From contig WAOQ01000017.1 of NCBI GenBank assembly GCA_015521205.1, positions 1 through 39,810 of the forward strand: a DNA stretch of 39,810 nt. Reading direction: 5' to 3'. Both the position numbers and the translations under genes were made by a program. The DNA comes from Desulfurococcales archaeon (GTDB lineage: Archaea > Thermoproteota > Thermoprotei_A > Sulfolobales > Acidilobaceae). The notes under the pieces are model-generated. The model saw only the letters and a program-made list of their open reading frames with translations. It ran no database searches and was not told the DNA's origin. Below are positions 519-26,444 of this stretch, piece by piece (positions within the stretch are counted from its first letter, which is position 1; each line of letters begins with the position of its first letter).

Positions 519-587
519 GGCCGATGAGGACGAGTCCGACCACGAGCCTAGTAGGGGTTATGACGTGATCTTCTCTCTGCCGAGGCC
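519..587 (+). ncRNA. Putative box C/D-like sRNA 1
   Basis: Terminal stem GGCC(519-522)/GGCC(584-587); C-like box ATGAGGA (524-530), D-like box CCGA (580-583), internal C'-like ATGACGT (560-566) 13 nt before D. Fits the k-turn pattern with G-C replacing U-U at 3b:3n. Confidence 0.6.
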
Positions 588-638: not shown

Positions 639-698
639 GGGGATGAAGATGTCGCTCCAGGGGAGCTATGCGATGACTGCCTCACGACGAGCCGACCC
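639..698 (+). ncRNA. Putative box C/D-like sRNA 2
   Basis: Terminal stem GGG(639-641)/CCC(696-698), C-like box ATGAAGA (643-649), C'-like GCGATGA (670-676), D-like CCGA (692-695). Segment CTGCCTCACGACG (677-689) is complementary, with one mismatch, to the conserved 23S rRNA motif CGUCGUGAGACAG recalled from general knowledge. Confidence 0.68.
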
Positions 699-699
699 C

Positions 700-757: not shown

Positions 758-1216
758 TTGGCTTGGGAAACAATAATAGCAATAGTAGCCTTGTTGATTT
801 CTATCATATCTTTAACATATGTTATTAAACTCTACAAAAAACTTCCTTACACACTTGACAACAAACGAGAAACAAATACAATAAACTATCTCCGCGATGT
901 CAGAGAGAAGCCGCGGAAAAGGTATATTGTTTTACAACTAGTACCCATACCTAGAGAGAACACAAAGGAATTTGTCCGGAAAACGGTTGAGACGGGTCTT
1001 CGAAGGATTTTAGGGGATACCGGGCTTGTAAAGATGGGATTCGCTTTCATCGAGTACGAACCGATGAGCGGTAGGCTTATCTTGCAAGTCTATCATAAGT
1101 ACCTAGAACATTTCTTAGGTTCGCTTGGGATACTCAACAGTAGGAGCGAGTATTCGTTCGTCCCACTTAGTGTAAGTGGGACACTACAAAAGGCTCGGAG
1201 AGTAGCAAAGAGGTAA
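758..1216 (+). CDS. rnp2: RNase P protein component 2 (Pop5/Rpp14 family) with N-terminal hydrophobic extension
   Basis: RYIVLQLVPIPRENTKEFVRKTVETGLRRILGDTGLVKMGFAFIEYEPMSGRLILQV resembles the Pop5 family; neighbourhood with psmA and Rpp30; TTG start. Confidence 0.85.
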   Translation: MAWETIIAIVALLISIISLTYVIKLYKKLPYTLDNKRETNTINYLRDVREKPRKRYIVLQLVPIPRENTKEFVRKTVETGLRRILGDTGLVKMGFAFIEYEPMSGRLILQVYHKYLEHFLGSLGILNSRSEYSFVPLSVSGTLQKARRVAKR

Positions 1217-2568: not shown

Positions 2569-3246
<678 letters not shown>

Positions 3247-26229: not shown

Positions 26230-26317
26230 GCGGGGGTGCCCGAGCCTGGTCAAAGGGGTCGGGCTTAGGACCCGATGGCGTAGGCCTGCGTGGGTTCAAA
26301 GCCCACCCCCCGCACCA
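26230..26317 (+). tRNA. tRNA-Leu (TAG)
   Basis: Acceptor GCGGGGG/CCCCCGC, anticodon arm TCGGG-CTTAGGA-CCCGA, T-arm GTGGG-TTCAAAG-CCCAC, long variable arm, encoded CCA. Confidence 0.96.
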
Positions 26318-26323
26318 CATGGG

Positions 26324-26444
<121 letters not shown>

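Follow-up and report, generated by a model that had tools for sequence, protein, structure and literature searches.

Which RNA, if any, is encoded between the proteasome gene psmA and the RNase P protein gene pop5 of this Desulfurococcales archaeon, and which ribosomal nucleotides would it address? We examined this question in the window, i.e. the entire 39,810-nucleotide stretch of DNA analysed here, which is a contig (C17) of a 768,821-base assembly that is 55% complete and does not include a 23S rRNA gene. The original prediction placed a single box C/D sRNA at positions 639–698 within this intergenic region, enclosed by a GGG/CCC terminal stem. All of the proposed stem and box motifs are present in the sequence, but the feature extends to position 699 and its stem is GGGG/CCCC, and a tandem neighbour sRNA at 519–587 had been overlooked (hereafter element 1 for the neighbour and element 2 for the predicted sRNA; Table 1). 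Given its layout and homologs, we hold with high confidence that element 2 is a double-guide box C/D sRNA gene, with predicted 2′-O-methylation at U2593 and in the P-loop of 23S rRNA. As judged from sequence comparison, it very probably directs methylation at two sites of the ribosome catalytic centre.

Table 1. Features of the window, with guide targets in E. coli 23S numbering
Feature	Position	Strand	Sequence or target	Basis or remark
Element 2, box C/D sRNA, whole	639–699	+		Sequence, profile match and homologs
Element 2 terminal stem	639–642 / 696–699	+	GGGG / CCCC	Sequence
Element 2 C box	643–649	+	ATGAAGA, 3b = A	Aligns with ATGATGA/ATGAGGA of homologs
Element 2 D′ guide	650–660	+	TGTCGCTCCAG, to 23S P-loop CUGGGGCGGC, 2248–2256
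Element 2 D′ box	661–664	+	GGGA	Alignment; Acidilobaceae homologs have 1 nt more between guide and box
Element 2 C′ box	670–676	+	GCGATGA	Sequence and homolog alignment
Element 2 D guide	677–691	+	CTGCCTCACGACGAG, 9 bp with 23S CGUCGUGAG, 2591–2599	N+5 nucleotide A687 opposite U2593
Element 2 D box	692–695	+	CCGA, 3n = C	Sequence and homologs
TATA-like element	~20–25 nt upstream of element 2		TTTAAGG	Spotted by eye
Element 1, second box C/D sRNA	519–587	+	Stem GGCC/GGCC	Sequence; homologs upstream of pop5
Element 1 C box	524–530	+	ATGAGGA
Element 1 D′ guide	531–541	+	CGAGTCCGACC, 10 bp with 23S GGUCGGACUC
Element 1 D′ box	542–545	+	ACGA
Element 1 C′ box	560–566	+	ATGACGT
Element 1 D guide	567–579	+	GATCTTCTCTCTG, 9 bp with 23S GAGAGAAGA	N+5 = G2056
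Element 1 D box	580–583	+	CCGA
Proteasome alpha subunit (psmA)	1–375	−		PF10584/PF00227
pop5 (RNase P protein)	758–1216	+		PF01900, E 2.4e-9; downstream neighbour fixing conserved gene position
YGR210/Obg-like GTPase	1225–2436	−
Ribosomal protein L15e	2569–3246	+
tRNA gene	26326–26441	+	~42-nt insert in anticodon arm	Rfam yes, ARAGORN no; directly after tRNA-Leu at 26230

Conservation of element 2 and the role of chance

Taken by itself, the 9-bp match of the D guide is not significant, as 406 of 3,000 guide shuffles (13.5%) also matched the 16S and 23S rRNAs of the nearest relative with rRNA (genome G023) over 9 bp or more with the N+5 nucleotide included. Single-sequence folding of element 2 was likewise not better than that of shuffles (z −0.27), and sigma-70 and terminator scans, both designed for bacteria and applied here to an archaeal host, were empty. 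A strict scan requiring a C box, a D box, a stem of at least 3, a C′ box, and at least 9 bp covering N+5 yielded element 2 as its sole match across both strands of 274 kb of the same genome, with none in the reversed control. In a relaxed C/D sRNA scan of the same 274 kb, 13 structural candidates stood against 7 from the reversed control, a margin too near noise for an estimate of how frequent CCGA boxes are in this genome.

The support beyond chance lies in conservation rather than in any single guide match. Of 214 genomes in the order, 171 matched the element 2 profile at E up to 0.01; of 127 in the class, selected by completeness, 97 did so at E up to 0.001, most of these belonging once more to the order. 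Element 2 matches this own-family profile with an E-value of 2.9e-14, the sequence itself being among the training set. With a degenerate pattern, element 2 was also recovered in records named Metallosphaera, Aeropyrum, Thermogladius, Ignisphaera, and Thermofilum, while the few matches elsewhere, e.g. in one Arthrobacter contig, are probably due to chance. Across genera, all boxes and both guides are conserved, including at the position upstream of pop5, and the original call of a box C/D sRNA is backed by homologs throughout the class.

These observations bear on the most sceptical reading, namely a chance cluster of motifs or a decayed intergenic pseudogene without any functional RNA. The nonconsensus C and D boxes, the ease with which shuffled guides reach a single match, and the absence of 23S from the assembly would all fit such a reading; conservation of both guides, the boxes, and the gene position across genera, along with the unique strict-scan match, argues against it. 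We consider it exceedingly improbable for this locus, and chance is nearly excluded for the element 2 family as a whole.

Two predicted guide targets near the ribosomal P-site

The original prediction directed the D guide to the 23S peptidyl-transferase region, at a site that lies in helix 93, and counted CGTCGTGAGACAG as positions 2591–2603, a numbering that we confirmed on rrlB of E. coli MG1655 and from which U2593 follows as the N+5 target. Because the assembly contains no 23S, complementarity was judged on the 23S of the closest available relative, where the guide forms 9 bp, and the target sequence does not vary among the nine 23S sequences compared. Homologs class-wide bear out this assignment: the N+5 nucleotide is an A opposite U2593 in 62 of 62 distinct parsed homologs, within a contiguous helix of 7–12 bp (G-U allowed), a count that is partly selected since the parser accepted only guides with CGAC or GAC and three nucleotides ahead of the D box, and that leaves aside a few unparsed profile matches, part of which were examined. 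Outside of Acidilobaceae, D guides mostly read GCGACG instead of ACGACG, which turns an A-U pair into G-U. Literature searches on U2593 and on the homolog sequences returned nothing relevant. As a side observation, two homologs from an Ignicoccus-like genus (L284 and L165, genus g19) retain the P-loop D′ guide along with a different D guide, as if one guide of this sRNA had been swapped.

While the assignment of the D guide to 23S stood, the D′ guide to the P-loop had been overlooked. This guide reads GCCGTCCCAG or GCCGCTCCAG in most homologs and GTCGCTCCAG in element 2, all facing the P-loop CUGGGGCGGC; if the D′ box is spaced as in relatives, its N+5 target is G2251. The P-loop is a known target site in archaea, and G2251 a predicted methylation site in three of them (PMC4644070). 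In element 2, the D′ box GGGA is 1 nt closer, and the strict N+5 target thus becomes G2252, opposite a U; guide-end indels have been reported to shift targets in exactly this manner (Dennis et al., PMC4644070). This shortening, by 1 nt between D′ guide and D′ box relative to Acidilobaceae homologs, is shared by both sRNAs of the window (boxes at 542–545 and 661–664), and by strict counting their D′ targets therefore shift to G2607 and G2252, respectively. The D′ guide of nearly all homologs follows GCCGTCCCAR or GCCGCTCCAR, with one G-U pair each, and the fully Watson-Crick form GCCGCCCCAG never occurs.

By analogy with known C/D biology, the RNA of element 2 would fold on L7Ae and then recruit Nop5 and fibrillarin. 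The D guide would pair with CGUCGUGAG of helix 93, allowing fibrillarin to 2′-O-methylate U2593, while the D′ guide would pair with the P-loop of helix 80, addressing G2251 in relatives and either G2251 or, strictly, G2252 here. L7Ae-family genes are present in this genome, and a search for fibrillarin in the available 55% gave no match. U2593 and the P-loop sites both fall within the peptidyl-transferase/P-site portion of domain V, so that element 2 may also join the two regions during ribosome assembly, and this double pairing may aid the folding of domain V.

Such bridging of helices 80 and 93 could also be the chief role of a genuine C/D RNP RNA that acts as an rRNA chaperone and does not methylate both sites. 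The two guide sites are ~340 nt apart and both at the P-site, and a chaperone role has been suggested for double guides with distant sites (PMC4644070). In addition, the D′ box is 1 nt short, every homolog retains at least one G-U or weaker P-loop pair, and the D′ site of this genome may be unmethylated because the shifted D′ box makes the strict N+5 pair a G-U. A pure chaperone, however, would have no need for the strict N+5 spacing to U2593, and we consider this explanation unlikely. Counting against the preferred double-guide reading are the lack of element 2 in several genera of the same family, the off-by-one D′ spacing at this locus, the 9-bp match that is not significant alone, the parser's demand for part of the guide core, and the absence of 23S and fibrillarin from the 55% assembly. 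The double-guide reading yields a testable prediction, i.e. 2′-O-methylation of U2593 and G2251, at the ribosome P-site, across many Thermoproteota.

A linked neighbour sRNA and a shared gene neighbourhood

Element 1 lies ~50 nt upstream of element 2 and is present in 61 of the 214 genomes of the order. For its D′ guide stretch GAGTCCGACC, the match in the 23S of G023 is GGUCGGACUC, with an N+5 target of C2606 by the spacing of relatives and G2607 by strict count, and its D guide CTTCTCTC stands opposite G2056. Element 1 would be expected to act like element 2, here on C2606 and G2056. C2606 is methylated in all six thermophiles of PMC4644070, and the archaeal sRNAs described there for 23S C2880 (= E. 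coli C2606), Sac sR13, Iho sR6, and Pca sR30, target the same nucleotide as the element 1 D′ guide when the spacing of relatives is used. Their partner guides differ, the D guide of element 1 facing G2056. Identity of element 1 with sR-tMet (RF02163) was considered and rejected: the D guide of sR-tMet, judged by its consensus, fits the CAU anticodon, whereas that of element 1 does not.

Among compared genomes having both sRNAs, the two are no more than 10 kb apart in 32 of 45. For element 2 and pop5 the same distance limit holds in 17 of 23 genomes. Element 2 often lies beside a pop5/YGR210-like GTPase gene cluster, and, as the original prediction suggested checking, it is found upstream of pop5 in other genera with boxes and guides intact. 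From this position, on the same strand as pop5 in Acidilobaceae, the RNA might instead act in cis, as a k-turn leader through which L7Ae regulates pop5, and not as a guide in trans; L7Ae is known to regulate via 5′ leader k-turns (PMC6298567; PMC5539422). Yet the guides are conserved and not the k-turns alone, and element 2 is located away from pop5 in six family genomes having both genes, which makes a leader function very improbable in our view. Within the same family, genera g5, g8, g11, g12, and g14 are mostly without element 2, an absence that represents lineage-specific loss; g8 and g14 retain element 1 just upstream of pop5.

Returning to trans-acting guides, we tentatively raise the possibility, itself rather doubtful, that this class-wide and often linked pair of C/D sRNAs, which Rfam has not curated, constitutes a module devoted to methylating and folding the P-site (G2251 and U2593, C2606 and G2056) beside RNase P and proteasome genes, in which both D′ targets have moved by 1 nt here (G2252, G2607) and k-turns switch between 3b:3n classes, including A-C.

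Joint variation of the k-turn 3b:3n pair

The k-turn 3b:3n pair joins the fifth nucleotide of the C box to the second of the D box. In element 2, ATGAAGA/CCGA retains the G3-A4, A4-G3, and G6-C1 pairs required of a C/D k-turn, with A-C instead of U-U at 3b:3n; the internal boxes GCGATGA and GGGA both align with those of homologs, the D′ box being degenerate. The original prediction singled out this A-C combination as unusual. It is indeed present, yet not as an isolated oddity but as one state in a coupled series: the 62 homologs display U-U (45), G-C (6), G-U (4), A-U (3), C-C (3), and A-G (1), and element 1 homologs G-C, G-U, and U-U. None of these 62 homologs has C at 3n opposite U at 3b (Fisher p 2e-7, relatedness ignored), and with one entry per genus and state, using genus labels assigned by hand from the profile-search results, the association was reached in 5 of 20,000 shuffles. 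The nearest relative has A-U (ATGAAGA/CTGA), placing the A-C of the window one step off. The CCGA D box appears to be a tolerated variant, with the 3b:3n pair having changed jointly with the C box.

Watson-Crick and G-U pairs at 3b:3n fold poorly in metal ions alone, A-G readily (PMC4382518; PMC5689011), and by these rules the Watson-Crick and G-U k-turns of the family would depend on L7Ae. The element 2 family offers natural data on the 3b:3n pairs accepted by a C/D k-turn, with G-C, G-U, A-U, A-G, C-C, and A-C besides U-U. This variety bears on k-turn folding rules (PMC4382518, PMC5689011) and on uridine-demanding sRNA finders such as SnoReport 2.0, which requires uridine at 3b:3n according to PMC7994747. 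Some homologs with CCGA boxes (L107, L111, L175, L049) have C boxes ATGGCGA or ATGCGGA, whose fourth position is not the A that normally takes part in the tandem G-A pairs.

Relationship to known families

At gathering score, Rfam reported only tRNAs in the window. The best scores were 17.2 bits for element 2 (sR15, RF01146, cut-off 40), 20.0 for element 1 (sR-tMet, cut-off 50), and 34.7 for homologs (snoPyro_CD, RF00095, cut-off 45); the likeness to these families and to sR5 (RF01304), all below gathering score, reflects the common C/D frame. Element 2 and its tested homologs belong to the box C/D sRNA class and are claimed by no Rfam family at gathering score.

Yeast snR67 guides Gm2619 of 25S, the equivalent of G2251. 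Its family (RF01177) matches element 2 weakly (13 bits) through the snR67 guide UGUCGCCCCA, which fits the same P-loop, whereas its second guide is unlike that of element 2. This similarity would arise from the shared target alone, with or without common ancestry. Compared to archaeal box C/D sRNAs (e.g. 489 RNAs in Dennis et al. 2015, PMC4644070), element 2 has the same C-D′-C′-D order, terminal stem, two guides, N+5 spacing, and rRNA targets at the peptidyl-transferase hotspot, but carries CCGA and ATGAAGA instead of CTGA and ATGATGA, and a D′ box 1 nt nearer to the guide. A 2.2-Mb Sulfolobaceae-like genome contains a weak candidate homolog whose boxes are intact; published RNA-seq catalogues may therefore already list the family, and Sulfolobus homologs in particular may already have been catalogued in this way. 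Elsewhere in the window, the insert in the anticodon arm of the tRNA gene that follows tRNA-Leu is probably an intron.
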